The position numbers and the translations under genes were made by a program. Shown one piece after another: positions 31,094-63,399 of a DNA stretch of 64,000 bases. Under the pieces are notes generated by a model. It was not told where the DNA came from. It saw only the letters and a program-made list of their open reading frames with translations, and made no database searches. This DNA comes from Darksidea phi (lineage: Eukaryota > Ascomycota > Dothideomycetes > Pleosporales > Lentitheciaceae): NCBI GenBank assembly GCA_030770425.1, contig JASJFT010000006.1, forward strand, positions 62,001-126,000. Reading direction: 5' to 3'. Position 1 is the first letter of the stretch. Each line of letters starts with the position of its first letter.

Positions 31094-34000
31094 CTACGCG
31101 TCATGCAATAGGATGAGGCCATCTGTGGCACGCTTACCCAACGCCTCCAGCGTCCCCATACTCAACATTTCCATCGTGCTGATTTGGAACCCGAAGGTCA
31201 GCTTCCACCAAGCCCGCAACTCGACCGCTACCAAGGAGTCCAACCCCATATCGGCAGTGCGCATGGCGATGTCGATCTGCGCATTCCCTGCTAGGAGCAG
31301 ACTGGACAGCTTCTTTCCAATTTCCAAGGCGAATAGCTCCACCGTCCGGTCTGACCGGAGAACACTCGGGTCCTTCCTGATGGTGGCGAGGAATGCGCGC
31401 AGCCCATCGGTTGCGGAGCTAGCGTTACTGCCGCCCCCGCCCCCGCCTCCGCCCCCGCTCATGCTGTGGTAAATCGCCATCCGCGCATCCTTCGCCAGCA
31501 GAGTGCTACTCTGGGGGTTGCTCAGAGGAAGAGCCGGGATGAGACCGAGAAGGAAGGCGTCGCCAGCTGTGCTGCCTTGTCTGCGTCGATCGCGAGTGGA
31601 CGGAGACATCATGGCCAGATCCAGGGCTCCGAGGAGCTCCGTCTCCTGCACCACGCACCACCCAGTGGCCTGCATCTTCCTGAGAAGATCTTGGTTCTCG
31701 GACAAGTAGCCAATGCCCTCCATCGCCCCAAGATCGATCGCTGTACAGGGGAGGTTCATGCCAGCGCGATACTGGACAAAGGCGTCGAGAAAGGTATTCG
31801 CGCTCGCATAGTTGGCCTGCCCGACTTGACCAACGATTCCCGACAAGGAGCTGAATAAGAGGAAGAAGTCAAGATCCAAGCCTCTCGACAAAGACACGTT
31901 GTGAAGGTTCCATGTGCCCTGGACCTTGGGCTGCGTGACTGCGTTCCAATCCTCGATAGTCATCTTGTCGAACATTTGATCGCGGAGAACCATTGACATC
32001 TGCACGATGCCTTTCAGGGGCGCCAGAGCCCCATCCACAGCACGCGCAACATCGTCTGGGTTGGCGACGTCTCCACGGACTAACTGAACCCTGCATCCCA
32101 TGCTCTCGATCTCCCGGGTGAAGTCGACATCGTGCTTTCCACTTCCTGCACTTCGAGACAAGAAAGTAAGATTTCTGGCGCCGTGTTCGACCATCCAGAC
32201 CGACATGGAGCGTCCCAGACCGCCGAGGCCACCGATGAGGAGGTACGAAGCTGCCCCATCAAGGTCGGCGCTTGTCTTCGTCGTGGTGTCGACGTCCTTG
32301 ATCAAGAGGTTTCCAGTAGCGTCTCGGATCTCAAGCACAATCTTGCCGATGTGCTTACCCTGCTGCATGTATCGGAAAGCGTCTAGCACAGCAGGAGCGA
32401 TGAATGTTTGATCGACTCGTATCGGTTTGAAATGGCCCTTAGAGAAGCAGTCCATCGCAAATCTAAGCGATCTGGAAAAGAGGATTGTGTCAGCGCAGTT
32501 AGGTCAGACGAGGAGACGGAGTGCCTTACCGGCTGCTAAGCTCAGGTCGTTCTGTTCTCATCTGCTCGACATCCAAGCAGCAATAGTTCCGGTTATCCAG
32601 GAAGGGGCCCATATCAAGCTGGGCATTACCCAAAAGGTCCCGCTTCCCAATCTCCACCATGGTTCCCCATTTCGCAACGCATTTCCAGGTTGCATGCAGA
32701 AGCTCTCCGGCAAGGGAGTTCAGCGCCACATCAACACCCTTCCCGTCAGTCTCGCGCAGTAGGTCGTCCACAAATGAGGTATTCCTAGAGTTGAAGATCC
32801 GGTTCCTTGGAATGCCGAAAGTGTCCATCAGATATTGCGCCTTCTTCTCGCTGCTCACGGTTGTGTAGACTTCGGCGCCCTGCAAACGAGCTACCTGGAT
32901 AGCAGCCAGTCCCACTCCACCAGCACCGCTGTGAATCAAGACAGACTACACGATAGTTAGGAATTGCTCCAGACTTGTTGATGTGCGTGCGGTGCTCACC
33001 TGGCCTTCGCAAAGTCGCGCCAAGTCGATTAGCCCATAGACGGCGGTGATGAAGATGGTGGGAATGCAAGCACCTTCGATAAAGCTGATGTTGTCCGGTA
33101 GCTTCTCGTAATACACTTCCCGGCCTGTAATGACGGTCGTGAACGTGTTGATGCCCACAACAACAGCACGGTCACCAACACGCACTTTGGTCACTTTTGG
33201 CCCAACTCGGCGCACGATTCCGGTTGCTTCGTAGCCAAATTTGGGTTCGTGGCGCCCTGGTATGATTTGCATGCCTACTAGGACATCCTGATGGCATTGT
33301 TAGCCAAGCCTGGTGCCTTGGGGCGCATGATGGTGAACTTACCCGGAAATTCAACCCACTGGCGTACACTTCGACTTCAACCTCATCATCCACCGGAGCA
33401 GGCGCGGACTTTGCCGACCATCTCAACGTGTCGAGGCGTCCTGGATGAGATTGGGACAAGACAGCCTCATCAGATGCGTGCGACACCAGAAGCTCCTGGT
33501 CAAGAGAAAATGGAAAGACGCGGTTGACGAGTATCTGGCCGTTGTGGATGACATATTCATAATCTGGACCTAAGGCGCCATCTTCTTCTCTCGTCTGAAA
33601 TTTGCCCAGGACGTCAACTAGAGAGATAGCCCCTGCAGGAGTCACAATCCTGTCCGTCTCCAAAGTAGCAATGTCGATCGCAATCTCAGATCGAAGAGTG
33701 CGGATTAGACCAATGATCTGACCGTATCTGGGGTCGGTGCAGCCAACATTGGAGAGCTGCGTGACCCAGAGCATGCCAGCGCTTCCGAGATGATTGAGGA
33801 ATGACTTGAATTCTGACAGTCGGGATGCGTCAAAGTTCTCGAAGAATGGGAGCTCTTCTTCAAGGAGTGTGAGTACGTCCTGGCCCTGTGGTGGTGTCTG
33901 TCCTAGCGAACAACGGTCGACCTGGTAGCCCCGATGGGTGAGCTCATCTACAATCAACTTCGGCTCAGCCGTTTTGCTGTTGCACATTAGTAGCGTAATG

Positions 34001-37000
34001 CGCTTGATTGGAGTACTCGGGAGCTGGGGTTTTGCTACTAAAACAGTGTTCGTCCAATGCGCCGAGTCTGGTTTGACGTGGTCCACGTCTGGAAACCCAG
34101 CTGCCGCCAACTCCTCCTGCCACCTCTCAAGGCTGATAAAGGGCTCGTCCACCCGTTTCAAATCTTCAGAATGGGACCACCAGCCAGGCAGTGTGCCCAG
34201 AGCAAACTTGGCCCAAGACGAACCGGGTCGCGGCTCTTCCAGGATCAATCTTCCGCGAGGGCTCAGTAGTCCGTGGATATTTTGTAGACCCTTTTGGATA
34301 TCGATGCTCGTACTGATGACGTTTGCCGCAACGATGAGGTCAAATTGACGACCCTCCAAGGCCTGGTCTGCCATACTTTCATTCACATTCAGGACAGTAA
34401 ACTCGATATTTGGAACACCCTTCAAGCGTTCCTTTGCCGTCATCAACAGGCCTGACGATGCATCCGCAGCGACGTACTGGGAGTACAAAGGTCGTCCATC
34501 AGCGAGGGTCAAGCTGTTCAATATGTTCAACGTCTTTTCGCCCAGCCCTACACCGATCTCTAGAACACGGACATTGGGCTTACTGTGCGCGATACACCGA
34601 AGATATCCGGAATCGTCTTGTGCCCGTAGGAAGTCAGAAAAGCTGTCCAGGCCACCGACCTGATTTAGGATGTCTAATCCTGTCTTTTCCCCTTCCAGTA
34701 GAGCTTTTATACTGTTGGAAATGGCAGCGATGGCATTTGCTACACGTCCAGCAGAAGTTTCCTGCATCCTTACGACCAGCGACTCAACGCCTCGAGTGAG
34801 TTCAGCAACTTCGTCGAGAGCTGAGGGCGCCTGCTGGTTGAGCCACTCCTTGTACTTGATCAAGTGAGGTGTCTGCACTTCTGTGCTCTTAACAGTTGCG
34901 CTCGCAAGAGTAATTGCCGATTGCGCCAGTTCATTGAGTAGAGGTATGGAGACTTCATGGCCGGGAGGTAGCCTGATGAGGTTGCTGATGTTTTGGAAGT
35001 CGACGTAAGGCACCCACTCACATCGAGCCGTGATGGGGGTGCTGCTTTCGTTCTTGCCTTCGGTCTCGTCGAAGATTGAGACGCGAGCACCAGAGATCCG
35101 TAAGACGGTCATTGAGCCCGCAGTAACTGAACCCTTTCCGATATAACCTTCGTCGTCGGGCCTGGATGCAGCGGAGAGTACGAGGTCATCTTTGGTGCAG
35201 CGAAATATTGTCATCGAATCGATTTTTGAAGCAAGCAGTCGTTGGTAATGTCGGCCTATACCGCCATAAACCGAAAGGATCATCAACTGAATGTATGAGT
35301 CCAGGATGACGGGATGCAGATGATGCTCTGCCTCATCGCCCCATTTGTTGTTTCGCATCGTGGCCGTAGCTTCACGAGGCCAGCCCGTGGATGATCGTAC
35401 CTGCTCCAGAGTAGTGAAGTTCGGCCCGTAAAAAAGACCTCCTCGCCGCTCTGCTTCATACCACTTCGATATATCGACTTTTCGTGGCAGCTCTTCTGCT
35501 TCCTCGTCATGCTCTACCTTGTTGTTGGATGTCTCTCCTCGGACCTCGCCTGTGCAGTGTTTTGTCCACAGGTGACCATTATGTGACGATACAGTGAATT
35601 CCCACCAATCGCTGTTGAGACTGGCGGTCAAGCGCCGGGGGCGCATGGTGGTAACTAATTCGGTAGGCGCATCTTCAACGAGCACAAGAGAAGTAATAAC
35701 AGTCACGTTCTTGAAACTGACTCCATCGTCGACCCCAGTAACCTGACGAGCAGCTTCGGCCGCCATGGATACGAAACCGGACAACGGGAAGATGATGGTT
35801 TCATCGACCTTGTGATCAAGTATCCAAGGCGCAGTATCAACCTGTAGAAGATTTCGCCATACAGGTTCGAGATCGGTACACTCTGGCACTTTTGCCCCCA
35901 AGAGATTGTGGTCAGGATGTTCTTTTCCTCGCCACTCCTTGGATAACCTGGACTCAAACCAGTGCCTTCGCGAGTGATCCCAGGGATAGTGTGGTAAGTC
36001 CGTAGCACAGGTACCATTGGGCGCGAGTGATTTGATGTCCATGACGACATGTAGCGTGTACAGTTTCCCAATCGCTTGAAGCAAATTCTCCACACTGTTT
36101 TGTCGTCGCACGAGTGAAGGAACATAGGGCGCCTTGCTTGACTCCGATGCTAGAATCTGTCTCAGCGGACCAGCGAGTGCGGAGTGGGGTCCCAGCTCCA
36201 AGAAGACCTCGTTGCTGATCGCTTGGGACTTGATGATGCCAGACACTGCCGAGTTGAAAAGTACAGGGCGCTCCAAGTTGGCTTGCCAGTACTTGGGGCC
36301 TAGTATGTCACCTTTTGTGCTCCCAAGTAGTTTGCCAGTTACACTAGAGAAGAAAGGTATTAAAGGCGTTTTCCCCACTACCCCCGAGTCAACCATTGCT
36401 CGATGGTAGTCGTCCCCAAGGACTAGCATATGGTGCGAGTGGTATGCCTTTTCTACCTTCAAAATGGTAGCCGGTACGTCTGGGTGGCTTTCTTTGATGC
36501 TAGCCACGACAGCATCCAGCTTGTCAGCATCTCCAGACAGAGTCACACTACGTGGTGAGTTGTCACAAGCTGCGATGACTCCTGGAACTAGATATTGCTT
36601 CACCTCATCCCAGCTTAGCCCCACTGCAGCCATGCCGCCGCGCTCAGTCGATCCCTTTGTGGCAGCTCCGCGGTGGAATGCGACAATAATAGCTTCTTCT
36701 GCTGTGAGAGCTCCTGCCGCGTATGCCGCCGCAATTTCACCACTGGAATGGCCAACGACAGCGGCCGGTCTGATGCCGATCGAGGCAAGAGTGTTGACAA
36801 GGGCTATTTGAAGGGCGGTGCAGAGTGGCTGCGAGAATTCGGCCTCGTATACTCGGCTCGTTCTAGTCGGTTTAAGAAGTTCTTCTTTCAACGACCAACT
36901 CGGCGCGACCGCGCCTAGGCTCTGCAGATGCCTGTCAAGCGACTGTATGGTGTCTGAGAATGTACTGTTGGAGCGCAACAAGGCACGCCCAAATTGAGGC

Positions 37001-38846
37001 CAAGCTGCGCCTTGCCCGGTAAAGACGATGACGAGAGACGGAGCTGCTAAGCTGCCTTCCCGGGTTGCTGAAAAGGGAACCAAATCGAACTTGCCTTTCG
37101 TTGCGACTGCGAAGGACCGATATGCAAGATGCTCTCTTCTGCTTGCAAGGGTGTATGCCACGTCGGCAATATCCAAGGATGTCTCGCTGAGCAGAGACTG
37201 GTAGTTTCGCTCTATATCTTTCAATGACCGGACCGTATTGGCTGAAAACAACAGTAGTTGCGGCTCATTTGCTGCTGTCACTTGCGGCTCCGGTACCTGG
37301 CGGGAAGCCAGAAAACTTGCTGCCGATTCTACGATGACATGGGCATTGGCTCCGCCTACACCGAACGAATTGATGCTGACGCGCTCGTCGCGGTCGGCGG
37401 GCCATTGCGTAGGCTGTCCGGGTATCTGAAGCTTCGCGCGTTCAAATGGGATTCTAGGGTTCAGTGGCAAGTATTTGATGTTTGGGGGAATGGTCTGATG
37501 TTCTAAGGCAAGTGTGGCCTTGAGTATTGCCGTTAAACCTGAAGCTCCTTCTGAGTGTCCCAGATTGGGCTTTACTGCACCGAGGATTATCCCTTCCTTA
37601 TCAAACACTGAAGCGATAGCCTCAGTTTCTATAGGGTCTCCAGCAAATGTCCCGGTTCCATGACACTCAAATAGTGCGGTTTTGGAGATATCTGACGCGG
37701 AGATACCCGCAATCTCGTAGGCTCGTCTGATCAACGCTTCCTGTGATGTGGCACTGGGCATTGTTATGGGGTTTGTCTTCCCATCAAAGTTTGTGGCGCT
37801 GCCGGAAATGATGGATCTGATTGGGTTACCATCGCGAAGTGCTGCGCTCAGTGATTTGACATAGACTGATACGATGGCTTCACCTCGCGCATAGCCATTT
37901 GCGTTTGCCGAAAACGTGTTGCAAGACCCATCCGGGCTCAAGACACCCTGGCCCGATAATCTTGTGGCCATATCAGGGGCCAAGATAAGGCTGGTGCCGC
38001 CGACGATGGCAGACTCGCAGTCGCCTCTGGCAATGGACATACATGCCTCATTAAGACCAGTAAGTGCAGATGAGCAAGCCGTGCGAATTGTCAAACTGTC
38101 AACGTTTTAAAATTAGCGTCTTGGACGAGCTTTCGGGTCTAGAGTACTAAATACCTTGGCCCACGAAGATCCATCTCATGCGATACACGCTCCGAGATCA
38201 TAAAATCGTGCGATGTCGTGAGCGCATAATGACTATGCCTTAGTCCGTCACGAACCATGATATCGTACCAATCTTGAGTAAAATTCCCCATGTAGACGCC
38301 GATATTAGAGCCTTTCCAGCCCACTTCTCCGGCATCATCAAGGGACTCCCGTGCAACTTCGAGCATCAGTCTTTGCTGAGGGTCCAGCCACTCGACCTCA
38401 GTGCGAGTCATGGAGAAAAACGACGTATCCAGCCCTGCAAGGTCGACCGACTCGTCTAAGAAGTAGCCGAACTCTGTGTTGGAAGTACCGGGCCTCTTCA
38501 CTGGCGAATAGTAGCCATCGATATTGAACCGGCTTTTCGGAACACGGGTCCTTCCGTCTCGCCCCTCGATCAGGAAATCCCACAGCTCCTTCGGGGAGCT
38601 GATTCCTCCTGGAAGGCGGCAAGCCATGCCGCAAATGGCGATGGGTTCAAATACAAGGCCCTTGTTTGGTGTCGACTGGGACCCCTTGACGTGGCCGTTT
38701 GCTGCATATTGGTTCGTGCCATTTGTGCCATTGCTGTGTCCATTCACACCTTCCGTTCCGTTGAGGTGTCCATTCATGCCATTGGTATCATTGCTGTGTC
38801 CATTGCTGGGAATGGCAGTTCTATCTGCACCATTGATTTGGGTCAT
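31094..38846 (-). CDS. Highly reducing polyketide synthase (KS-AT-DH-MT-ER-KR-ACP), apparent frameshift
   Basis: Five exons: 38846-38155, 38095-33343, 33287-33000, 32945-32530 and 32472-31094, about 2,500 residues. KS: Cys in TACSS (about residue 236), HGTGT and NLGHSEG. AT: GHSSGEIAAAY (about 690). DH: His in WILDHKVDETIIFP (about 1000). MT: LEIGVGLGEKT (about 1400). ER from about 1800, with GAGGVGLAAIQVA. KR: GGLGGLGRS and Tyr in GQANYASAN. ACP: Ser in MGLDSLVAVEL. There is no thioesterase or reductase, so another enzyme must release the chain; the neighbouring alpha-oxoamine synthase is the obvious candidate. The N-terminus has Asn-Gly repeats and the KR-ACP linker a poly-Gly run. An ATG 34 codons upstream (38948) is possible, but its residues look like leader. 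The frame of the last exon is offset by one base from the only GT-AG splice I can see (donor 32529, acceptor 32473), near a run of four A at 32459-32462. Confidence 0.93.
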
Positions 38847-39968
38847 CTTACTTGACGGGGAAGATGGGATGGCTGAAGTATGGAAAAAGGTGGATGAAGT
38901 GACTATGTGGACAAGGCTCAGGGTGTTTCGATTTTCATAGGCCAGCATTCATCTGAATCTATAAGAACTGTTCATAAACGTGGGCAAAGCATGTCTTTCG
39001 TATGATCGGATAAGTGAGAAAGTACACCTTGCTTAGCCTTGTCAACGAGTGGCAGTTGCACTGTTGCCTCCCGCCACACTTCAATCATTTCCTGTTAGGG
39101 GAACCAGCAGGTACGTCAGCTACTCGTAGCAGTAGCCAGCGTCATTTGTCTATCATGGATGCACTACTGGGATATTGACACATTCAGTCAGACACAGAAG
39201 CAATCGGCATATGTGGAGAATCTGAAGCCGTCCCAAAGTCAAGGTTAGTTAATAGAGCGGAAATATCAGTTGTTTCTAAACCTGGTTAGTGCGAAACGGT
39301 CCTAGAAGGGGCTGCGTGGAAATTATCCGCCTTGCCCTAGTCGTTTGCCTAGTTGCCGGAACTCACATGCATGTGGTTACGGTGGTATGCAGGGCGCTGT
39401 AGAACATGCAGTCAGCCACCTCGACTGTACGACTCAAAACCTGATTTTCAGTCGAGTCAAAGGATGGTCACTACCGTCATCGATGTTACGAAGTCCAAAC
39501 TAGTTTCTCATACCTGGTATGTTTCGCTTGTGATGCAGTCAGCCACGAAAACATGCAGTCAGCCACAACGCTAAGCAGTCAGCTAAGCACATATGTCATT
39601 ACGCATATCAAGGCGCGGTCAGTCTCAAGTTTGTGCACTACAGGGGCGAACGCACCGGGTCATTTTTAAGCCCATGCGCATTCCGACGCTGGGTTGACAA
39701 GGGTGAAGGCGTTGGTGAGTTATGTCAGCTAGGCTACCGAACTACCCCGGAGACTCAGACATTGAAGCCCATTGGTGCGGAAAGGCTTGGTAAACACGGA
39801 GATGTAAATGAACTCCCGGGCCCGATCTGATGCCTCGCTAGATATTGTATGATTAGCTTTATAGAAATTATACAAGATATCTTGTGTGCATCACCTCCTC
39901 AAGAGCAGTGCTCAGCGTTCTTTTGCTTCCCCATCTAAAGTCTAGCTAATTTCAAAAACCAATCCAAG
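38847..39968. promoter_or_regulatory. Divergent promoter of the PKS and oxoamine synthase
   Basis: This 1.1 kb region separates two divergent cluster genes. It holds GTCAGCC at 39411, 39538 and 39558 and the variants GTCAGCT at 39115, 39578 and 39724. The fuller form TGCAGTCAGCCA is shared by the 39407, 39534 and 39554 copies. The motif contains a TGAC half-site, as bZIP factors prefer, and a bZIP gene lies in the cluster. Confidence 0.65.
39531..39590 (+). repeat. Three tandem 20-bp regulatory-type repeats
   Basis: Three units of exactly 20 bp each carry GCAGTCAGC at the same offset: 39531-39550, 39551-39570 and 39571-39590. The flanks between boxes vary, so the conserved core is the box. 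A 20 bp spacing is about two helical turns, which would put bound factors on one face of the DNA. Confidence 0.8.
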
Positions 39969-41554
39969 ATGTATTACGAGAATCTCCTCAAGGAGATGCT
40001 ACCGGCCCAGGAACTCCGTGGCCCGTCTATGAAGAACGAACCCGCCTTCTACCGCCGACTGGAACAGTCCATGGACGTCTCCCGTCAAAGACGTGACCTC
40101 ATGGTTCTCAAGCCGCGCTGGGACGACAGCGTCTTGGACCTGACGTCGAGCGACTTCCTCTCCCTCAACCGTTCAGGCCGCATCCGGGAAGCCTTCCTGA
40201 AAGAGCTGAAAAACTGTGGCGACTTCCAGCTCAGCGCCGCCGGCTCGCGTGTGCAATATGGCAACTACGACTATCTGCTTGAAGTGGAGCGGGAGCTCGC
40301 CGATTTCCACGGCGCGGAAACGGCTTGGATCTGCCACTCGGGCTTCTTTGCTAACTTTGGCGTGCTCGAGGCTATTCCGCTGCCTGGAGATGCTATTGTC
40401 TATGATGAGTTTTCCCACGCAAGCACTGGCCTCGGACTCAAAGTCAGCATGGCCGCTCATAAGATCTCGTTCAAGCATAATAGCATCGATTCTTTGAGGG
40501 ACGTTTTGACTTCTCTCAAGACCATGGATCGCGGCTTCGCGACGGGGGACAAGTCCATCCTGATCTCTGTCGAGGCTATCTACAGCATGGAAGGCGATAT
40601 ATGTCCCCTCAGAGAGATGGTCACTGTGGTGAAAGAGATGTTTCCTGCTGGCAACGCGCAATGGGTTATAGATGAGGCACACAGTAATGGTACTCTAGGT
40701 CCGAAGGGAGCTGGCTTGGTATGTTCCAAAGCTCATGTTTCCAAATATTTTCCGGTCTGACTTAATTTTTGAATCTAGGTCTCAATGTTAGGGTTGGAGA
40801 AAGAGATTGCTATTCGAGTCCATATGTGCAGCAAAGCGTTGTCATCAACCGGAGGTGTGTTATTCCTCTTCTCATTCTATGGACCAAATCGTGAGACTGA
40901 GACTGAATCTTTAGGTGTGATACTCTGCAATAAAACAGTACGAAGCGCCATTGTCCATTACTCACGAGCTATGACATATTGCGGTGCGCCCTCAGTTCCC
41001 ATGATCGCTTCTATCCGAGCTGGTTACCAACTGCTGAAGAGCGGCCAGACAATAAAGGTATGTCCCATTCAAGCCTGCCATGATCTCAAGCAAGTCCATC
41101 TGACATTTTCGCTTCACTTTAGCAACAGAACGCGATCCAAGAGATTGTGAAATACTTCTTCCAAGCGCTCCTAGCGAGCCCCGCTTGGGAAGAGGCCATG
41201 GAAGAAGGTGTTTTATGGGTACCGCTCGCCGAGGATTGGGAGGAGCGCGCTGTCCACTCTCACATCGTACCCATTAGAATACGCGGAGGCCAAGAATTCT
41301 CCCTGTTTGTGCACATGCTCATGGCCAACATGAACGCGTATAACATCCAGTATCCCACCGTGCCAAAAGGACAGGGCCGTGTCAGATGCGTGTTTCATGC
41401 CCATAACACGAAAGAGGAGATTGATCGTCTAGTCTCTACTGTTGGCGAATGGGCGCTCGAAATTCTGGATATCGAGCGTGGCCAGTCGAAGAATACCCTT
41501 CCGAGCGCTGTGCGTCGAGCCTTTGCCTTGCAAACGTCTGGATGGAAGGAATGA
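39969..41554 (+). CDS. PLP-dependent alpha-oxoamine synthase
   Basis: Four exons, 39969-40718, 40779-40854, 40915-41057 and 41123-41554, give 466 residues. Family motifs are all visible: FQLSAAGSRVQYGNYDY for substrate binding, IVYDEFSHAS, DEAHSNG at the PLP pyridine, and the Schiff-base Lys in CSKALSSTGG. These enzymes condense an acyl thioester with an amino acid and lose CO2, giving an alpha-amino ketone; serine palmitoyltransferase and 8-amino-7-oxononanoate synthase are relatives. Next to a PKS without a release domain it probably off-loads the polyketide, as Fum8 does in fumonisin synthesis. Unlike Fum8 it has no long N-terminal membrane extension and is about the size of a soluble class II enzyme. 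It shares a divergent promoter with the PKS. The amino acid used cannot be read from the sequence. Confidence 0.92.
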
Positions 41555-42005
41555 GCGGGATTAAGAACGTTGACCATTTTCTGGAATTTCATCTTAGAGT
41601 GAAGAGTAATATGACCTGGCATTGTAGAAAGATAAATCCAATGCCACGCCTTCTTCACTATTTACAAGGTTGCTACTGTTAATGTTATGCAACATCTGAG
41701 CCGGTCATTTTGTCTACCTACCATAGGTATTCTGTGACTTGTGAGTTTGTTTCTCACAGTATAGTAAAAGTATGAGAAAAAGGTTGACGGTACACAGAAG
41801 TAGCAGAGACGTCCCTTCGCATTTTCTATCTAGAAGCTGACTCTGATACATCCAATAAACGAGGAGCGAGCTCGCATATGTAAACGCTCAGTTTATCAGG
41901 CTTTTGAGGGGGAATCAAATCAACTTAGATCCAAACCGTAGTAAGAGGAAGTGTAGGGTAGCCCAATCACACTCTCGCCACAATGCTTCCACGCAAGGAA
42001 CCCCA
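41555..42005. other. Intergenic, convergent 3' ends
   Basis: A 450 bp gap between the oxoamine synthase and bZIP 3' ends. Nothing beyond 3' UTR sequence is seen. Confidence 0.5.
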
Positions 42006-43843
42006 TCACTGCGCGCGTCGAGCATAGAGAAGAACAGCCACAACGACCCTAGCAATCCTATCACAATACACACCCTGAGCTCCGGCCAACTCCGTGAGGA
42101 TGGACCAGAGATATGGCATCTACAAAGTTAGTTCACCCAGGACGCACCAACATTGACCTGGGTATGTCCACTCACCGAGTCTGGAGCGCCCTCCATCTCC
42201 CCCAGTAGCTGTAGTTCATCCGGAGTACCCGACTGCATCGTGTGATCGCTTCGTATGCTACCTCCATGGTCACTTATCAGCCACTCAAGCGAGCTGGTGA
42301 GACTCGCTAGCTCGCCTTGGTGCGGGTTGGGTTCCTTGGTCTTGCTGAGACGTTCCATTTCTTCCACGCAGAGGGAGGCTGGAAACCCAACCGGCAGTCG
42401 TTAGCTCGAGTTATCGCAGGCAAAGAAAGACCAGACTCACCAGTCGTTTCCGAAATGCTCTCGTTGAGGCCTCGAGACTCCCACCGCGGCCACTGCCGAC
42501 TACTCACGTGTAGCTCCTGCAGCATCGCTTTTAGGCGGCGGCTGCGGCTGGCGCATTGGACCATGGCAGGGAGGCTGCCTTTTTCAAATTGCGCCGTGTA
42601 GTATGCCGCCGCCATCGCATCGAAGTCTTGGAACCCGGCTGTCCGCACTGCTTCGAGCACGATTCCGAAGCGTCTTGTGATTTCAGTGACAGAGGTGCCA
42701 GATGCAGGATATGGCAAGGGGTCGGTCGGCGAGGATATCATGTCGCCTATGCTGGTGGTGGATGCGCCGTTGAGCGGTATGGCCAAGGGATATTGCGTGG
42801 ATGGTCTCATACGTTTGTTTCCGTGATCGACGTGCAGTGGTTGTGAGCCCGAGTCACTAGATGAGAAGAAAGACGTTTAGCTCGAGCGGGGACTGAGGGG
42901 TGAAGCGACGGGCTAGAAACACATCATTGGTATAATAGTAGATTTGCAAAACTTACCGCGGCTCCAGGAGAGCAAGCTGGTAAACGGAAAAAGCACACAC
43001 CTTGATCTAGAGAAACTGGACCGATGGTGTGGTGTTTGGTGAGTCTGGGGTGGTATCGACATTTCAGGATTAGAAACGTGGTGGTTTTGGTGCCGGTGAT
43101 GAAGTGGCCGAGGAGAAGTCCTCTCTGCTAATACTTGAGCGCGCATTTTTTCGAGGTGGCCAGGACAAGGGCCAGTCGTGCCGTTGCAAGGACAACTCTG
43201 AGGTGTGTAGCCTAGCTGAGATATGCAGCTCTCGTTCGCAAGTGGCATGCTGACTATTGGGTAAACATTCGACCAAGACGAGTCCTGTTGGGACAACAAT
43301 TGATTTGCCATGAATGGATCATTTATCATCATGCCGGCTAAGGGGATAGTTGAGGGAGATCCCGGAAAGGATGAAGCAAAAACCTCAGGGTCGATGTCAC
43401 CTATGGAATTTATTGAACTGGTGTCTACCGATGCGTTGTTGTGAGGAATGTGGGATGGTTTCAGCGTATCGTTTGGGTTGGGGTTCGTATTGGTAGCAGC
43501 TTGGTGATTCTCGTGGTGAGCCTCAGATGTGGGGTCGTCATTCGCGTCTTCACGCGTCTTGTTATTGCCTTGGTTGGTCTCTCGAATCCTTTGTCCTATC
43601 TCGGTTGCAATTATAAGCTGTAAGTCCTGATTGTCCCTATTGAGACACGGAATGCGGATACATACGATGGTTTCGCTGTGAGATTCTGTTCTGAAGTCTA
43701 AAATCCCCATCAAGAATAGTTCAACAAGCTGAAAGGATGACAAGCGAGTCGGTTGCTCACCTTCTGAGTTCTACAGCCCTTGGGCTCGTAGATCGGCCTG
43801 ATTTCCGTGCAGCTTTTGATGGTCTTTCCTCTCCCGTGAACAT
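42006..43843 (-). CDS. bZIP transcription factor, probable cluster regulator
   Basis: Six exons, 43843-43761, 43697-43666, 43595-43001, 42856-42441, 42378-42176 and 42119-42006, give 480 residues with consistent phases. The basic region is built across three exons and reads RRLQNRISQRNHRQRIRE, with the bZIP signature N-x7-R; its centre lies on a 32 nt exon. A long disordered middle follows, with a Cys cluster (CPCNGTTGPC) near residue 220. The segment ITRRFGIVLEAVRTAGFQDFD...AAYYTAQF, then RWPRWESRGLNESI, matches a helical region I know from other bZIP-type fungal cluster regulators. It probably activates the surrounding genes, whose promoters share a TGAC-containing motif; its own promoter has TGACGTCA at 44008. 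The last intron, and so the final exon, is the least certain part. The leucine zipper is short or weak. Confidence 0.82.
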
Positions 43844-44007
43844 GCTATACCGCCCGCTCCCGTACGTGATTGAGGCTGATTGAGGCTTGGAAAGAGTTTA
43901 GTGCTTAATTAGAAGTAATTGGCGAGACCTGCGCACCATTCCCGTTGAAAACCACGGGATCACCCGCTATTTATGGGGTCTGCAGTCAGCGGGAAAGGCA
44001 TCCCAAG

Positions 44008-44015
44008 TGACGTCA
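44008..44015. promoter_or_regulatory. CRE-type palindrome TGACGTCA
   Basis: A perfect TGACGTCA palindrome, extended to TGACGTCAGCTTAGC, lies 165 bp upstream of the bZIP start. CREB/ATF-type bZIP dimers bind this sequence, so autoregulation is a reasonable inference. Its right half (GTCAGC) is the core of the motif found in the other cluster promoters. Confidence 0.6.
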
Positions 44016-44049
44016 GCTTAGCAAGCTCGCTTGATTTTATTCATTACGG

Positions 44050-45310: not shown

Positions 45311-46541
45311 CTACGAACAGTCCTCCAAGCTCCTCAAAGCCGGAACCTTCTTTTTCAACTCGGCGATAATTTCATTCCAAACCATTTCTTTGACTTTGAC
45401 TGCAGTGTCGCTCGTCACGTTCGGGATTGCCAAACGCTGGTATTCGTCATCGGTATACAACGTCTGGATATATTTGCCCTGTTGGACAGTGTCAGTCAGT
45501 CTATTGCACAATGGAGTGTCTACAGAGTGTATGGCTTACGTGTTCTTGTTCCGAGGTGCGTGCCGCTGTGACATAGCACCGTGCACCATCTGCTGGCGAT
45601 TTTCCCAACACGTTGAAATATAAGAGAATAGCCAGCTGCATCATTCTCGACATTGTGGATATGGACCGTCCTAGACTAGTGTCCACGAGACCGGGGCAAA
45701 CAGTGTTCACGATAACGTCCACTCTATCACAACAAGCCCAAGATTAGCGCAGTCCGGAACGTTGAGGACGGTTTCATACCTTCCGTTTGCTCCCATCGCT
45801 CTTTTGCAGATCTTCTCCACGGCGTATGTGAGCATTAGCTTGGTTTCGGAGTAGTTGGGATCGATTTGGCCAGCGGGCCAGTTTCGCTCGTTACTGAAAT
45901 GCTGCAGTATGCCTTCTTGGGCTCCCCATTCCACCCAAGGGGTGATTTCGGGGAGAATGTGTTTTCGAGACGTCACGAATGATAGGTGCGGTGTTGTTGT
46001 TCCAGCTTTGTGCGTTTGCTTCATCCAGCCCAGTAGAAGCAGTCCCAGGAGGGTGGTGCTTAAAGTGTGGACTTGGATGGTTTGTTCCCTACGAGAACAC
46101 GTAAGAAGTTTTATTGTGTACAAGGGGCAAAGGCAAGACATACCAGCCCTCAGGACTCAGCACAAAGTCCACATTGATAAGACCAGCGTTCAGGACAGCA
46201 ACGTCAAGACCATTGCAACCCGCCTCACTTTTCTTCAATTGGTCGACGAACGATAGACATGAAGAGTATCGGCTCATGTCCAATTCCATGACATGTATTC
46301 TTCGCTTCCCAACGATGCCAGCGCGTTTTTCAACATGTTCCTTGGCGGAGTTGCCCTGGGCTACACTTCGCGACGTCAAAATCACGCTGGCCCCAAGAGT
46401 TGCGAAATGGACTCCTGCAGCCAGTCCAAGACCTGCGGTTGCTCCTGTGACAAGGACCGTCTGACCCTCAAACGATGCCATAGGAGGCAAAGGCTCTGGC
46501 CAGAGTTTGTCGCGTAGGCGACGAGGCCAGAGGGAAACCAT
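45311..46541 (-). CDS. Short-chain dehydrogenase/reductase
   Basis: Four exons, 46541-46144, 46088-45780, 45723-45540 and 45478-45311, give 352 residues. The NAD(P)-binding motif TGATAGLG, the structural NAG in VLNAGL, and the catalytic Tyr and Lys in YSETK are all present, followed by NTVCPGLVDT. A second in-frame ATG 20 codons in (46481, MASFEGQTVLVTG) would give the classic SDR start; the extra N-terminus is basic and may be real. In a pathway with an alpha-oxoamine synthase an SDR would be expected to reduce the 3-keto group, as Fum13 does, but this protein resembles general fungal SDRs more than sphinganine ketoreductases in the parts I can judge, so the substrate is an inference. It is divergent from the ATP-grasp gene across 337 bp. 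Confidence 0.9.
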
Positions 46542-46878: not shown

Positions 46879-48984
46879 ATGGAACCGTCTCAAATCGCGA
46901 GAAACATCAATGGGCACGACGCATTCCTCTTTGAAGTCTTCTCGGTCAAAATCTCTGAAAACCAAGGTAAACACTGCTCATTCCTATGAGGCTGCCCTGT
47001 ATATTGATTTGCTCCCTCACGAGTAGCTCCAGCGAAGATCGCCTGTCGTTGGGGCATTTCGAAATCGCTAGCAGATGAAGATGAGCCGCAATATTTCCAT
47101 AGCCTCGATCTGCTGCTGAGCATCCTCCCTGCACCGATCAATGGTGCAGAAAAATATCTTCGCATCACCGACACCACAGGTACCGCCCTCGAGACCCTCG
47201 TTCGCCGCATTCCGGGGCTAGACAACAAGACAGAGGTAGCAGTAAAAGTGCTGCTAGTCCCACATGATGGATACGTGTGTATGAGCAGCATCCTGGATTT
47301 GAGAATGGGTCACTCAGAATTTGTCCACAAAGTGATACCGTTCGCAACGTGGGACAAACATCTTTCAGGCTTTCCAGTGCAAGACAAAAGTACTCTGCTT
47401 ACTTTACTGTGCTCCTCCCCTGGAGCACTTCTTATAAGGCCGTCGCAATCATCCCATTTCGAAACTTTGAAACTACTGCAGAAAGATCTGGCGATGCGAC
47501 TATCTTTCGATTGGATCCTTCCTAGCAAGCCACCCACTCGCACCGTGGCTGTCGTAGCCGGCCGTCCCATGCGCGAACCGAAGCGAGGCATATATTGGTC
47601 CCAACCATTCTTCGAGGCCGCCCAAGCCCTCGGTATATCGATAATCGTCCTTGATGAACCAGGACACTGGCTCGAAGGCGAAGAGTATGCCCATCTCCGT
47701 CAAGAGTTCATTGCCATCGACCTGTCCAACATAGAGAAGCTGCCGCAGAAACTGGCCACTGCGTTGAAGGGTAGACTCATTGATGGTATTGTTACCTTCA
47801 CGGATGATTACGTTGTCGCGACTTCCGAAGCAGCAGAGATTCTGGGTTTGCCCACTGAGCCGGCACAGACTATGTGGCAAGCCCACCACAAGAACGATAT
47901 GCGGAAATTGGTCAACAATAGCAACAGCATCCAGGCAGTGTTCATGGATAACGTCAAAGAACTCGACGATCCCGCCCTCGATGACAAGTTCAGTACCTTA
48001 AAGTACCCGATGATCATCAAGCCATGTCGCGGTGTGTACTCCAAAGGCGTCATGAAAGTAACCGATGACACAACGATGCGCCAAGCTGCACGTGTGCTAG
48101 AGAGAGACGGCCTGACTGAGGACGGCATCCTGCTCGAAACGTACGTCGACGGCCCCGAGCTAGACGCCAATTTCGTGCTCTGGGACGGAAAAGTCCGCTT
48201 CGTCGAAGTCTGTGACAACTTCCCATGTCTAGGCGACGCGAACGGTGCGACGCATTCTGCTAACTTCGCTGAAACGGTTACGATTTCGAACACTCGACTC
48301 CCTCACGTGGAGGTCGAGCTCATCCGTTCGTTTTTGCACAGAAACCTGCTGAAACTGGGCTTCCGCTCCGGTGTGTTCCATGTGGAGGCCCGCATGCAGA
48401 ACTCATCCATGCGATATCAAGACGTCCGAGGCGACGGGATCTTAGACCTCATCGACAGCAGCATTGACGGTGATGGAAAACACTACTCGGAATCCCAAAC
48501 GAATGTGTTCCTCATTGAAGTCAACGCCCGTCCACCTGGTGCAGGTGGTACATGGGCAACACTCTTTACCTACGGCGTGCATCTGGGCGCACTGCAACTT
48601 CTCCGTTCCATCAATGACAATGAGCGTTTCAAGGCTCTGTCGACGGCTTTCTCTTTTACGAGTACTAATAGTCCTGGTGACGGCGGTGGTGCCCAGTACT
48701 GGACTGCGCACTCGATGATTCCTGTCCATCGAGAGAAGATCCGAGTTCCAGAAGAGTTCTTCGAGAAGATTTATCGGGTATTGCCGGATATAGTGCCATA
48801 TGTTACCAGGGCGGAGCTGTACGCGGACCCGGGGTCGGTTGTGTCGCCGAGTGGGGGAGTGGGGTGGATTGGGTACCTTCTGTTATTTTCGAGGACGAGT
48901 AGGAGGCATGTTTTAGAGATGTATCATCGCGTTGCTATAGCTGCTAAGAACTTGTTGGATAACGAGAGTGGCTATGGCTCGTAA
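46879..48984 (+). CDS. ATP-grasp carboxylate-amine ligase
   Basis: Two exons, 46879-46966 and 47027-48984, give 681 residues. The first exon (MEPSQIARNINGHDAFLFEV) was found by following the frame upstream of an in-frame stop; the acceptor could also lie 3 bases earlier. The second half is an ATP-grasp fold: YPMIIKPCRGVYSKGVMKV (ATP-binding Lys and Gly loop), ILLETYVDGPELDANFV, and the metal-binding end LIEVNARPPGAGG. Related enzymes (carnosine synthase and amino acid ligases) activate a carboxylate as acyl phosphate and join it to an amine. Here it could link an amino acid or dicarboxylic acid to the pathway amine, or make the unit loaded by the NRPS-like enzyme. The N-terminal 230 residues are a divergent pre-ATP-grasp region. 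The partner substrates are unknown. Confidence 0.9.
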
Positions 48985-49913: not shown

Positions 49914-51054
49914 CTAGGCGGCGACTGCGGGTTTCCCAACTGGACTTCTCGAGTGGTCGTTTTCCTCCATCATCCCCACAACAACCTGCATCCCATTCTC
50001 CATAGTGTCAGGCGAGCGAAAAGCATTGAACTTGAAGTCATGCCACTCCTTCGCCGACCACACCTTTCCAGTCCTGTCAGTCCAAACCAAATCATCATTT
50101 AGACGTAAGAAGTAAGCGATGCTGTACCGGTCCTCGTGCTGGCTTCCGTGAAGAGGTATCACGCGGTGAACAACCGAAGGAATCTGCCTCTCAGATGTAA
50201 AGTGCAAACCATCGCCTACGTTGATTATCGCATGGTTGGGACGAGGCTTCACAAAGGCCCACGTCTTGGTGTCCAGAGAGAGAACTTGAAGACCCCACTG
50301 CCGCGTAAGCAGAAAGGTCAGCGAGCCAATATCCGTATGTTTATTGTGTCCCACGGTGTCCGCCGTGGGGTCGTCATGTTTGGGGTACTTGAGCAGGCCC
50401 ATGTTGGTAAGCGTCGGTCGTGCGTCTGCATGGAACGCCTCGAAGCGAGAGGAGCCCTCGAGCCCCATCTCGTCGGAGAGCCTTTCGAGCATGATTCTAG
50501 TAACTTCATGGGCCTCACGCATGAATCCGAAGAAGAAATCCGAGCGATCGCGGATTGGGGTGGAGAGTTCGATCTCATTTCGGAGGAATTCTCGTCGTGA
50601 GATCTAGAGAAATCGAGGTTAGATCTTCTGTTCGTAAACCGACTGCAAGGCCATAGGATGTACCTTGAGAGACTCGTATCCATCCCGTGTTGCCGGATTA
50701 GGCCCCACCTCGGTCCCGATGGGCTCGTATCTGTGACGGTCAATCACTGGTCACGTACACACTGGAATGGGTCTGATCGACTTACCCCGTGTTGTCGCTT
50801 CCACGGGCGTCCTGCATTTTTACTTCCAGTGGTTGATCAAAGTACTGCTTCATGAGAGGGAGCATCTCTTCCCAATAACGACATAGCGTTGCGTCGGTCG
50901 TCAGATCGAGATAGAAGAATCCATAGTTACGACAGGCATCGAGCAGCTTCTTGCTCTCCGCACTATCTCCGGCTCGGAGCTGATCCAGATGAAGCGTTGG
51001 TAGAGAGCTTGAAACCACGGGCTCGCTGTTGTTGGCGATACCGTTGGTAGCCAT
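49914..51054 (-). CDS. 2-oxoglutarate/Fe(II)-dependent oxygenase
   Basis: Three exons, 51054-50786, 50730-50664 and 50603-49914, give 341 residues. The N-terminal DIOX_N-type region (LDACRNYGFFYLDL) is followed by the double-stranded beta-helix with iron ligands HTD in GHNKHTDIGSLTF and the distal His in SVVHRVIPL; Arg in DRYSIAYF binds 2-oxoglutarate. Such enzymes use O2 and 2-oxoglutarate to hydroxylate or desaturate. By analogy with Fum3 and Fum9 it may hydroxylate the alkyl chain, though it belongs to the isopenicillin-N-synthase-like branch by sequence, so other oxidations are possible. It shares a promoter with the NRPS-like gene. All three exon junctions fit in phase. Confidence 0.93.
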
Positions 51055-54973: not shown

Positions 54974-55079
54974 GACGTCCTGTAAAAATACAACACGAGT
55001 CAACTTGCCATATGACTTTGCATAAACCTGATAGCTCGTCCAACATATCCAATGCTAGACCAAGCTCAGGCTACAATAC

Positions 55080-58000
55080 CTAATCCTTAGCCCCAGCCCT
55101 CGCCAGATTCCCAAACCTAGTCCCCATCTCTCCAGCTAACTCGATGGGATTTCCAACCTCCACAATCTGTCCCGAGTCCATGACAACAACTCTATCGAAG
55201 TCCATAATCATGTCCAACCGATGGCTAACCGACACAACGGTGTAGTCCTTGAACTCAGTCCTGATGATGTCCTGGATAATACGTTCTGTTGTCTGATCCA
55301 CACTAGAGCTGACTTCATCCAAAAGCAAGATACCGCTGTCTGAGGCGCCGGAGCCGCCCATGGTAAGCTCTAGATTCCGCGTCCGAACACGCCGTCGAAG
55401 CAACGCCCGTCCAACCGACATGAGTTGCCGCTGCCCGGCGCTCAGAGTCCCTGGGCTCATGCCTGCGTCTAAACCGCCGCGGTCCTGAACAAAATTCCAC
55501 AAGCCGACGGCCGCAAGTATCGCTTCGCATTCTGTAGAGTTTGAGACGGAGGACGGATCTAGGTTTGTCTGGAAGGTGGAACCTTCAGGTAAGAAGACAG
55601 CTTCCTGTGGGACTGCGATTATGCGCTCGCGTAGCGCGGCCCGGTTAATACGGCGGAGCGGGATGTCATCGATGACTGCCTTGTCGGCCGTCTCGGAGAG
55701 GGGATCGAGGAGCTTAAGGAGGAGGGCGATTATGCTAGATTTGCCGCTGCCAGTGCGACCGCAGATAGCAACCTTTTCGCCGGAGTTGATTGTCAAATGG
55801 ATATCATGGAGAGCCAAGTTAGGTGTGCCGCTTGTTTGATCTTCCGTACTACTCATCATTAGCACTTTTTAGCTTACATGGTTTTTGTGAGATATATTGC
55901 TCTTACTCATAACTTGCAGAGATACCCTTTAATTCTACTACTCCTTTTTGAGGCCACTGTTCTGGAGGAATAATGTCCTCTCCATCTCTGTCCTCCGGCT
56001 TAACAGTTTCGTTGAATGTCTTGAGTCTGGCAATCGCTCCGATAGAAGTTTCGAGCTTAGTGTAGTATAGAACAATGCCTGCGAGGTTCTCGCCGAGAGT
56101 AATGAGGCTGTAAAGAGCAGCACCGGTGAAACCAGATTTGGAGTGAAGCTGAACGGAAAGAGTCACTAAGACTACTGCCATTACCATAACTATCAGGCCA
56201 AGGATGAGGTTCAACCACTCTTGAATCATTAGGAGGAGATACGCTGGCCGTTGGCTAGTATCGATTAGGCGAGCGTTCTTCTCAATATCATTGGAGAGAA
56301 AACCTGCATATCCCTATTGTCAGCGACAACACCAGGTCTCGACAAGGAATGCTGCAAAGCGCCGTATTTTCGTGCGTTCAGTGTCCGTGTGGATCTCATA
56401 TATTACTCACCGAATGCTCTTAAAGTTGTGATGCCCTTCAGGGTATCAAGGAAATGCGTGCTGGATGAATGCAAATTAGCATAGTGCATAATAGTGGTCC
56501 AATATGTGACTCTCGGATGGAAGACTTACTATAGGGGACTTTTAGTCTCGAGGTCTAGCAACCTTAGCTGCCTGGAAGTTCGTAGGTAGAACCTTCCCAC
56601 GATATATAGTACGGCACCAAGGAGTGGGTAAGCTATGGCTAAGTATGCAGACGAAGTAAGCATAACACCCACTTGCCCGAGTGCTTGAAAGACCTGTGAC
56701 TTCTGCGTCAGACTACTAGGTAAAACTCCTCATCATTCTTAAGTTTGAAAGACTTACACAAAACAGCGTATTCAATAATGCGTCTGGTAGTTCGGTGTCT
56801 ATGAGGTTCAAATCTTGCGAAAATAGATTCGTAACAACACCGGTATCGGTCTTAATGAAGAAGCGTAATGGTGCTTGCATGAGTGTTCTCAGGGCGTCCC
56901 GGTGGATATTCGCACCTGCTCTTTTGATAGCGACGACCCAGAGCATTATGGCGAGAAGAAGCAATGATATCAGGGCGCATATTTGAAGCAAAGCATACAA
57001 TCCGGCGTAGTAAGCCCAAGAGCGTGTCGGATGTTCCGAAAAGACGTCGTCCGTCCAATACGTAAGCCCTACAGATGGTATTAGCCATATTTATCTGGAT
57101 TATATCATGAAACCATCGTTTTTGGTTGAAGGACAAAGCTAACTCACAAATGGTTGGAAAGTTGGTGAAGAAACCCCAAAGAGTAGCAAAGAACAGACTT
57201 AAAGCTGCCGGGAGCCATCCCATGCTTTTGGTGTAGTGTTTGTATACCGTCATATCACCAGTTTGTCGCAATGAATCCGTGTTCGGGGCGAGAGGTTCTG
57301 TGTCGATGGTCGACATGTGGAGAGGCTGTGGCTTCAACCCCTCCAAGCTCTGCTTTGACGTCGTTTCCTTAGACGAAACATCGCAGTCAGAAGGGCTTCT
57401 TAACCCCAGACACTGAACATAACCTTGACTGGTCATCAGTTCTCCAAAACTACCTTGCTCTGCAATGGTGCCATCTCCGAGTACGATAATATGATCGGCT
57501 GCAGGTAAGTGCTTGACGCTATGAGTGCACAGCACGGCCGTAGAGAGTCGACGTCTAAGAAGTCCACCTGGTGCAAAGACTTGTTGAAACACCTGCTCCT
57601 CAGTATCTGCATCCAACCCACTGAAGACATCATCTAGCACCAGCAGGTCAGACTGCAGATACAGAGCTCGCGCGAGAGAAACACGTTGTTTCTGACCCCC
57701 GGACAGTGTGACTCCATCAGATCCGACATTTGTTCGATCTCCTTGTGGAAGCGTGGCAATGTCGAAGCTCAGAGCCGTAGCATGAATGACTTCGGCATAT
57801 CTCTCATGGTTGAAAGGAGAGAATCCGACGATATTATCCCTGATGGACCCGTTCGAGAGAAACGCCGTTTGTTCGCAAAATCCAACGTGGGCGAGCCTGG
57901 TGCTTGAAACTACGCTACCTCGGCTGAAAGGGATCTCTCCAAGTAGTGCCTTGCAGAACGTAGATTTTCCGGAGCCAACAGATCCGACAACGATAGTGAG

Positions 58001-59956
58001 CGAGGATTTGGGTATGCGGGTGTTTACGTTCTGCAAAACGAACTTGCCTGCCTCCCAACCAAAGTCTCCGTTCTCGATGGCAAACTGTAAACTAGGCGAT
58101 TTCTCTGTGTCTGCTAAGGCTTTCTCCTCGTTGAGCCTTGCATTAACGAGGACTGCGCGAAAATCATGACGATCCTCGTACTCCAAGAAAGCCTGGATTC
58201 GACCTATACACGCTAGCCCGGAGACGATCTGAGGGACACCCTCGAAAGTCTGCAACAGCGGGTAAGTCATAAGTGTAAGGAAAGCAAGGCACGTGAATAT
58301 AGTCGAGGCATCCAGTGTTTGTTGAGTAAAAGCGAAGGTGAGTGGGGGACCGAGGAGCAGCGAGCTATATCCAAGGAGCGCCGCAGTAATGAATACCTTA
58401 CGGTATCGGGATCCCGCCGCTAGCTCCTCGACGCGGAGCTTCTGCACGAAGGTGCTTACGGCAGCGGGGAGGCTGGAGATCTTCAAGTTCTTCATGCTGC
58501 CGATAACGGTGGCCGTCAGACCAACACGTTTCTGGACCCCTGCCATCCAGGCCCTCTGGGAGTCTCCGGTAAAGTTTACCAGGATTCCCAAGCACGCGAA
58601 GCAGACCATAACCAGTCCAATAGATGCGACCAAGACTACGCCAAGTCGATTATACAGCATCCACGCAGCCAGGGCGGCCTGGATCAGGCTCGCCCAAGTC
58701 TCATGCATCGCTCTAAAGCCAACCCTAATTCGCTCCACGTCCGTGCTCATTAACGTCAGCGCAGCACTCCCATCGCTGATTCCAATTCGAGCTTTCGTGG
58801 CTTTATTGAATATTTCGGCAACCAATACAGATCTTGTTATGGTACGCGCTCGGTTGTGGAAGTACCTGTGCTCATGTATAAGTAGCGAATCTTGGGTGAA
58901 GGTTCGCAGATGGTACTGTACCAGTAGAAACCCATTGAGATAGCCATTCCTGAGTAGATTAGAAAGCTAGCCCCGATGAACCCATATCCCATATTTGCGT
59001 CAAGTTCAGGCTCTGATAGGTAATCCAGTAGCTTTTCCATGAGAAGCGGTTGACAAAACGTAAAGCCAAGCATCGCTAAACGTGGAGGTACAGGAAGTAG
59101 GAGAGGGACCTTGAGTGTGCGTACAAGCACCTTCGCCAGACCAAACTTGTCACCCTTTAGTTTGGAGTAGTCTATTTTCCTAGAGAACTGGTCGTGGAGC
59201 GATTTGGCGTTAAAGGCGCTGTTAAGAGGGTAAAGGTCCTCAACCGTTAGGATTTTGCTGTATCCCAACTGGAACATCCTGTTGAGCCAAAAGAACACTC
59301 CGAGGGAGAAAATTCCGCTCGTCTCCTCTGGACTGTACTGCTTCTCGTCCCAGCGCACCCATGAAGATTTTTGTTTGGCTTCTAATAGTAATATTCCAGC
59401 TTTCACGGCCATACCAGCGCAAAAGATGCTGCTGTAGGTGAGCTCCGGCTTGCCATCCGCCGACAAAAACAACGTTCTTGCCTGGGCCGCGTCTAGAAGA
59501 AGCGTCAGAGACAAATAGATATTTAGCAGCACAGACGGCCTCGGACTTCTACTATGATCAACAACACTAAGCGTTATCATAAGAAGGGCTGACACAAGCT
59601 CGAGGACGGAGGCAGCTATAAATATGTTGTTTACGTGGAAGGATCCAAGCGCAACCAAGATGAGGAGTGCGAGCTCAAGCGCGACGTAGATTGTGATGGC
59701 CCCCTTTGGTAGTTTGATCAGCACTTTGATGTACATACGTGCACTTAGATGAAGAGCGTACCACTTTGACGAGCTGGAAGATCGGAGCATTCACCACCGT
59801 AGGCTTTCGTAGCTGCGAAACCGTCCGCCATGATGATGTTGCGATGAACAGTGCGGAGGGTATAATGGAAAAAAACAGGTGCTCGAACTGGAGGTTGAAG
59901 TCGAATTCCTCTTGGTTCAGTTGGAGCAGATTCTCCTCGCGGGTCGGGAAGGGCAT
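55080..59956 (-). CDS. ABCC-type multidrug transporter
   Basis: Eight exons, 59956-59762, 59703-58922, 58865-57148, 57068-56758, 56693-56530, 56460-56411, 56303-55907 and 55848-55080, give 1,461 residues. It begins with an extra hydrophobic domain (TMD0) ahead of the first transmembrane domain, as in MRP/ABCC proteins. NBD1: Walker A VGSVGSGKST, signature LSGGQKQRVSL, Walker B LLVLDDVFSG. NBD2: Walker A CGRTGSGKSS, signature LSAGQRQLMSV, Walker B ILLLDEVSSS. Such transporters export organic anions or conjugates across the plasma or vacuolar membrane. Fum19 is the matching type in the fumonisin cluster; here it probably exports the product or protects the producer. Two first-choice splice sites gave introns under 40 nt and were replaced by 56 and 58 nt introns that keep frame. 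Confidence 0.93.
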
Positions 59957-61363: not shown

Positions 61364-61589
61364 ATAATATATGGTATGGCGTGGAATAGGGGCTCGCAGG
61401 CAAAATTAGCGGGAGATGGGAAGGATCGACACGTCATTATGACAAAGTGATAGAGCACCACTTCGGGCCCATAATATTAAGTCCAAAATTCTATAGATAC
61501 GCTGTGTAAATCGTAGCCTGATTAACTTCAAGGTGTAGTACGTAAGGTCTTTTTTGTCCACATACAAGCCCATGTGACCCTCCCATGAC

Positions 61590-63349: not shown

Positions 63350-63399
63350 GCGGTCAGCAAGTCAGCAAAGACTTTCAAGCCGTCATTATAAGCAGTCCT

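Follow-up and report, generated by a model that had tools for sequence, protein, structure and literature searches.

We analyzed a 64,000-nt stretch of the genome of the Pleosporales fungus Darksidea phi (the window; positions 62001-126000 of contig JASJFT010000006.1, in an assembly of 51.35 Mb and 477 contigs), in which eight genes were modelled between positions 31094 and 59956. They encode a highly reducing polyketide synthase (HR-PKS), an alpha-oxoamine synthase (AOS), a regulator, a short-chain dehydrogenase/reductase (SDR), an ATP-grasp ligase, a 2-oxoglutarate (2OG) oxygenase, a nonribosomal peptide synthetase (NRPS)-like enzyme and an ATP-binding cassette (ABC) transporter. The gene content and the homologues of the encoded proteins point to a cluster of the type known in Fusarium as SAM4, which probably makes a conjugated sphinganine analogue.

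Eight genes at the locus

Seven of the eight gene models are uninterrupted, with no internal stop codon, and the regulator model is incomplete (Table 1). An earlier reading of this DNA from its letters alone (the sequence-only reading) had set the ends of the cluster at 31094 and 59956, and both coincide with modelled ends, namely the PKS stop and the ABC transporter start. That reading had also proposed an HR-PKS without a release domain, divergent from an AOS gene, which the Pfam domains and gene models bear out. The PKS, AOS, regulator and SDR genes are consecutive models, as in the definition of SAM clusters in the available text of Kim et al. (2020; PMC7376913).

Table 1. Genes modelled in the cluster, in window coordinates (all intron positions are predictions)
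Feature	Position	Strand	Exons	Basis
HR-PKS, KS-AT-DH-MT-ER-KR-ACP, 2539 aa	31094..38948	-	31094-32462, 32530-32945, 33000-33287, 33343-38095, 38155-38948	Pfam (ER partly by eye), gene model
AOS, 466 aa	39969..41555	+	39969-40718, 40779-40854, 40915-41057, 41123-41555	PF00155, gene model, PDB matches, tree
Regulator with bZIP-like basic region RLQNRISQRNHRQRIRE	41920..43843	-	two introns; 3' end uncertain	by eye
SDR, 332 aa	45311..46481	-	45311-45478, 45540-45723, 45780-46088, 46144-46481	PF00106, gene model
ATP-grasp carboxylate-amine ligase, 679 aa	46879..48984	+	46879-46966, 47033-48984	PF18130 + PF13535 (ATPgrasp_N + ATP-grasp_4), BL00235 similarity, homologues
2OG/Fe(II) oxygenase, DIOX_N type, 341 aa	49914..51054	-	49914-50603, 50664-50730, 50786-51054	PF03171 (2OG-FeII_Oxy) + PF14226, gene model, PDB
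A-T-C NRPS-like enzyme, 1026 aa	51893..54973	+	single exon	Pfam AMP-binding + Condensation, homologues, motif alignment
ABCC-type (MRP/YCF1-like) full transporter, 1461 aa	55080..59956	-	eight predicted exons	two ABC_tran domains, PDB matches

The PKS has Pfam matches to KS, AT, DH, methyltransferase, KR and ACP domains; its zinc-dehydrogenase (ER) match, at 26.8 bits, falls just short of the cut-off of 27, and the remainder of the ER was read by eye. The protein ends in the ACP, where Pfam found no thioesterase (TE), R or C domain, and the solved structure closest to its largest exon is LovB. In the DH motif HKVDETIIFP a Glu replaces the usual Gly, as judged from the sequence and its alignment to LovB. 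This replacement, together with AT-rich stretches near 30-31, 44-45 and 63-64 kb in which TA/AT is raised, could suggest that the strain carries a silent or non-functional cluster even though the frames are open. Such a state, which would be compatible with the other readings, appears quite improbable: seven models lack internal stops, and the PKS of a second AOS-linked pair in this genome (contig C401) likewise has no Gly in the DH motif (HKVQQDIVFP), so that its absence may be a trait of the clade.

The AOS aligns over residues 10-461 of its 466 to two solved structures, 9dos (named 8-amino-7-oxononanoate synthase; 442 bits) and 9pep ('Aminoacyl transferase sphA'; 424 bits); the best of the other matches scores 112 bits. 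The motifs DEAHS, HMCSK (with the Lys in HMCSKALSS) and CHSGF are all present, and we take these to be the catalytic sites, including the Lys and Asp for pyridoxal phosphate. The full-length kinship and the presence of these Lys and Asp sites identify the protein, at the level of its sequence, as an SphA-type AOS. SphA itself collects the polyketide chain of the TE-less PKS SphB, according to the accessible part of the published account (PMC10936153).

The sequence-only reading had called the regulator a bZIP protein. A basic region is indeed readable by eye after two introns are placed, but Pfam gives no bZIP match at E 0.001 and none at E 5, which leaves this call weaker than the others. For the SDR the best NCBIfam match, PRK06197, is far below its cut-off, and the PDB matches are generic SDRs and oxidoreductases. 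The best PDB matches of a transporter fragment (56855-58966) are MRP2, MRP1, an ABCC2 and YCF1.

The locus is also characterized by what is absent. The nearest P450 match on the contig, with 92 of 375 candidates scored, lies at 83983 in window coordinates, rightward of the transporter by about 24 kb; no tricarballylate-type gene occurs among the eight models; and the ceramide-synthase family PF03798 has eight matches in the genome and none on the cluster's contig. The sequence-only reading had described all three as missing, which holds within 24 kb, the eight models and the contig, respectively. Nor did Pfam identify an acyl transferase in any of the eight.

Relation to SAM4 and other sphinganine-analogue clusters

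One of the close comparisons is the sphingofungin (sph) cluster of A. fumigatus. The likeness lies in the TE-less HR-PKS and in release by an AOS, with the sphA structure 9pep among the two best matches. However, sph is described as using the ketoreductase SphF, the P450 SphH, the acyl transferase SphE, SphC and the MFS protein SphD, and the available part of that account mentions neither an ATP-grasp enzyme nor an NRPS (PMC10936153). The fumonisin and AAL-toxin clusters resemble the locus in having an HR-PKS, an AOS, an SDR, an oxygenase and an ABC transporter (in part PMC7376913). They differ from it in that the window lacks a P450 within about 24 kb, a ceramide synthase on the contig and a tricarballylate-type gene among the models, adds an ATP-grasp gene, and has an NRPS-like enzyme with an A domain of its own. 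A further likeness is that an NRPS-type condensation enzyme makes an ester in fumonisin biosynthesis. Because their tailoring genes are missing, with no P450 match within about 24 kb (92 of 375 candidates scored) and no ceramide synthase match on the contig, we rejected membership in the fumonisin, AAL-toxin or sphingofungin clusters.

The gene set agrees instead with what Kim et al. (2020; PMC7376913) list in the legend to their Fig. 3, and the statements on SAM clusters that follow rest on the available portions of that paper. Five Fusarium clusters, SAM1-SAM5, were defined there by PKS, AT and SDR genes (as labelled in the paper), with criteria that include relatedness of the SDR to FUM13 and placement of the PKS next to FUM1 in reducing clade III. 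The legend lists further genes for the five clusters jointly: a transcription factor, DOX (dioxygenase), ABC, NRPS and 'carnosine synthase 1'; the regulator, dioxygenase and ABC transporter of the window thus have counterparts in that joint list. According to the paper, further known enzyme genes are absent from SAM3 and SAM5, and SAM1 contains a single dioxygenase and a single monooxygenase; the NRPS and the carnosine synthase should therefore belong to SAM2 or SAM4. Two fungi named for SAM4, F. phyllophilum and the Fusarium sp. strain NRRL 25303, are among the matches to the window's ATP-grasp protein, annotated as 'carnosine synthase 1'. Elimination from the text together with these matches therefore leads to SAM4, and the feature that it would assign to this subtype, an NRPS gene with a carnosine-synthase-like (ATP-grasp) gene beside PKS, AOS and SDR, is present in the window.

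In NRRL 25303 the SAM4 PKS, AT and SDR genes are reported to be pseudogenised (PMC7376913), and relatives of the ATP-grasp and NRPS-like proteins lie there on contigs of equal size (173930). The window differs from SAM4 in belonging to another fungus: the AOS relative is 65% identical (F. mexicanum), the NRPS relative 56% (F. proliferatum) and the ATP-grasp relatives 51% (F. proliferatum) and 56% (F. phyllophilum). These Fusarium relatives are presumably the SAM4 proteins.

SAM4 was the commonest of the putative clusters SAM1-SAM5 in the Fusarium survey, with 61 genomes, and the products of SAM1-SAM4 could not be named (PMC7376913). The open-licence literature, covered through listings and abstracts, showed no gene set of this kind with a characterised product. 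A term search of a 2026 paper on fumonisin and AAL clusters (PMC12821873) gave no hit for SAM4, carnosine, ATP-grasp, sphingofungin or NRPS, and the passages available from PMC11051388, on fumipyrrole and sphingofungin, have no bearing on the gene set. The sequence-only reading had proposed a sphinganine-analogue-type cluster with an unfamiliar tailoring set. Its PKS-AOS assignment, with two enzymes that could form amides or esters, stands, given the kinship to 9dos and 9pep; the claim of unfamiliarity was dropped, since the set was already in print among the SAM clusters (PMC7376913).

The ligase pair across fungi and the genomic setting

The ATP-grasp protein resembles the L-amino acid ligase BL00235 (3vot), a type that appears in annotations as 'carnosine synthase 1', both in its Pfam domains and in its alignment to 3vot over the ATP-grasp part, with E 2.9e-11 for the single sequence and 1.1e-24 with a 22-row profile. 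It differs from 3vot in about 180 extra residues ahead of the aligned part. Paralogues on contigs C427, C323 and C471 of the same genome are 35, 42 and 32% identical, the C323 match having an in-frame stop, and the 20-30 kb around each show no listed match to the NRPS or the AOS of the window.

In the NRPS-like enzyme the PP-binding match scores 18.3 bits, under the cut-off of 20.8, but the T site LGGNSF is nonetheless present. The C site reads HHVLVDV; among 75 relatives of at least 900 aa, drawn from 90 of 120 listed NRPS matches, HHxxxD is kept in 73, and Gly stands at the last place in eight. The ten-residue code of the A domain, as we placed it, is DGSMIMTCFK, which is identical in one of the 75 (P0260). 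To our knowledge it matches no known A-domain code, and a prediction of the substrate from it was abandoned.

We also asked how often the partner genes occur together in other fungi, comparing 120 ATP-grasp matches, 120 AOS matches (the best 120 of 249) and 90 of the 120 listed NRPS matches, with a shared contig being inferred from equal contig size. Among these, ATP-grasp and NRPS share a contig in 26 cases, ATP-grasp and AOS in nine, NRPS and AOS in 11, and all three in six (Thermocarpiscus, T. asperelloides, Stipitochalara, P. fimorum, Pleomassaria and Xylogone), whereas control offsets of 1, 2, 3, 5, 7 and 11 bases gave at most one match per comparison. Where locus tags are readable they lie close: in Thermocarpiscus the NRPS, ATP-grasp and AOS genes are VTK56DRAFT_2360, 2362 and 2365, a spacing of tag numbers that for these three genes corresponds to the window order NRPS-2OG-ATP-grasp-SDR-bZIP-AOS. 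The identities of the AOS, ATP-grasp and NRPS proteins correlate at 0.72-0.79 (21 pairs from seven genomes).

The trees are both quick builds with the window protein and 97 of 120 matches. In the ATP-grasp tree all 21 NRPS-linked proteins, the window included, fall into one set of 46 with support 100, compared with none of the 52 outside, and the number of label changes is 14 against a shuffled mean of 19.3. This set includes F. phyllophilum (P0055) and F. proliferatum, while a second group of Fusarium proteins falls outside; the tree leaves out the NRRL 25303 protein because of its short length. In the AOS tree the window lies in a set of 17 with support 99, together with F. mexicanum, and nine of the 17 are partner-linked.

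In a Colletotrichum sp. protein of 1580 aa (P0285), ATP-grasp and A-T-C domains are annotated in one chain, which is either a genuine fusion or the result of joined gene models. The genome of D. phi contains three further AOS genes beside an HR-PKS, on C401 (79158-89301) and C190 (288495-300536) in divergent and on C412 (41974-52553) in same-strand orientation, making at least four PKS-AOS pairs in total. A fifth pair at C451 was dropped, as a lower-bound scan found no DH-domain match on that contig. The 40-kb stretches at C401, C190 and C412 show no tblastn match to the ATP-grasp, NRPS, 2OG, SDR or ABC proteins of the window (E<=1e-8, >60 bits).

These observations bear on whether the locus holds one pathway or two. 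With two, PKS, AOS and SDR would make a free sphinganine analogue, while the ATP-grasp and A-T-C enzymes, with the 2OG oxygenase, would make a separate small amide such as a modified dipeptide. In favour of this, a listed AOS lies on only six of the 26 ATP-grasp/NRPS contigs, the other three PKS-AOS pairs of the genome have no match to the ligase pair nearby, and the single chain of P0285 means that the two ligases may form an independent unit. We nevertheless regard two adjoining pathways as unlikely. The AOS matches compared are the best 120 of 249, and the other contigs may thus still carry an AOS; in the window the ligase pair is interleaved with the SDR and AOS genes, with the Thermocarpiscus tags equally spaced.

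On the left, the neighbouring genes encode a kinase, a SIR2 protein, an RNase P subunit and a multicopper oxidase. To the right of the transporter, 60000-64000 holds low-copy repeats, with partial copies at 83-91% identity on contigs C31, C112, C146 and C412, and farther right the open reading frames (ORFs) resemble ordinary genes by eye. We rejected a rightward extension of the cluster, given these 4 kb of repeats, in which six scanned ORFs had no Pfam match above cut-off. Within the gaps, ten of 25 ORFs of at least 75 aa were scanned and none matched Pfam above cut-off. Elsewhere in the window, models 12717-13289 and 24136-25561, both on the minus strand, have by eye a signal-like N-terminus and Ser/Thr-rich sequence and are perhaps secreted or wall proteins. 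The genome as a whole appears rich in secondary metabolism, with 41 matches to the PKS DH family and, when each exon is counted on its own, 100 listed matches to P450s.

A predicted pathway and its significance

From the gene content we infer a pathway in which the chemical steps, their order, the substrates and the product are all predicted. The HR-PKS would build a reduced, probably methylated chain that is kept on its ACP, and the AOS would free it by decarboxylative condensation with a small amino acid, giving a 2-amino-3-ketone. That amino acid could be alanine by the residue-83 rule discussed below, with aminomalonate equally possible. The SDR would then reduce a ketone, probably that at C3, and the 2OG oxygenase would hydroxylate the chain. 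The A-T-C enzyme may activate an amino or related acid and load it on its T domain, from which the C domain would pass the acyl group either to the amine or to a hydroxyl. A second amide may come from the ATP-grasp ligase, and the ABCC pump would export the conjugate.

Several points weigh against a SAM4-type cluster with such a conjugated product. The SAM4 assignment depends on elimination from the portions of the paper available (PMC7376913), and the NRPS relative of F. phalaenopsidis (P0259) could not be tied to SAM4. Among the listed matches, 25 of the 46 proteins in the NRPS-linked ATP-grasp set have no NRPS link, and an Apiospora ATP-grasp protein that shares its contig with an AOS falls outside that set. 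In the AOS tree the partner-linked proteins are scattered (11 changes for 13 proteins; shuffled mean 12.5, with 39 of 500 shuffles as low), and the partners also accompany distant AOS types in P. angulare, T. evansii, Xylogone and A. arundinis. Because partner-linked proteins occur in such distant AOS groups, the association is not one clean lineage.

The substrates of the first steps are a further weak point. Placed by motif (AAGSRVQYGN), the AOS has a Ser at the ALAS-83 position, which by the rule in the available text of Kim et al. predicts alanine as substrate (PMC7376913). SphA has Ser at this position too, which makes the rule weak, and is reported, in the accessible part of that work, to require aminomalonate when the substrate is polyketide-like and to take serine when it is palmitoyl-CoA (PMC10936153). 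Alanine as a firm substrate was dropped for this reason. The SDR, whose best matches are generic oxidoreductases, is at most a candidate for the 3-ketosphinganine reductase type.

The last point leaves some room for a different fate of the AOS product, namely an amino-ketone that is cyclised or captured by the NRPS; in place of a 2-amino-3-hydroxy lipid, the product would be an alkaloid of the pyrrole, pyrrolidine or pyrazine type. An ATP-grasp relative, P0073, is named 'fumipyrrole biosynthesis protein C', by annotation only. However, the AOS is kin to SphA and groups with the F. mexicanum AOS, and an export pump and a fully reducing PKS would suit a lipid, which makes an alkaloid rather improbable. 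A conjugated sphinganine analogue from a SAM4-type cluster is the reading that we prefer.

A bolder and more tentative proposal is that the ATP-grasp and A-T-C enzymes may form a dedicated conjugation module that moves jointly through several classes of Ascomycota, presumably distinct judging from the genus names of the fungi that bear it, and that with a PKS-AOS pair could produce an undescribed class of aminoacyl- or dipeptidyl-sphingoid lipids. An open-frame relative of SAM4 outside Fusarium, with a trackable ATP-grasp/A-T-C pair, narrows the possible products, and the two enzymes can each be assayed alone. The three PKS-AOS pairs without these ligases nearby provide a comparison set within the same genome. 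If amino acids do sit on the amine, it would be the amino-alcohol end that sets the lipids apart from fumonisin and sphingofungin.

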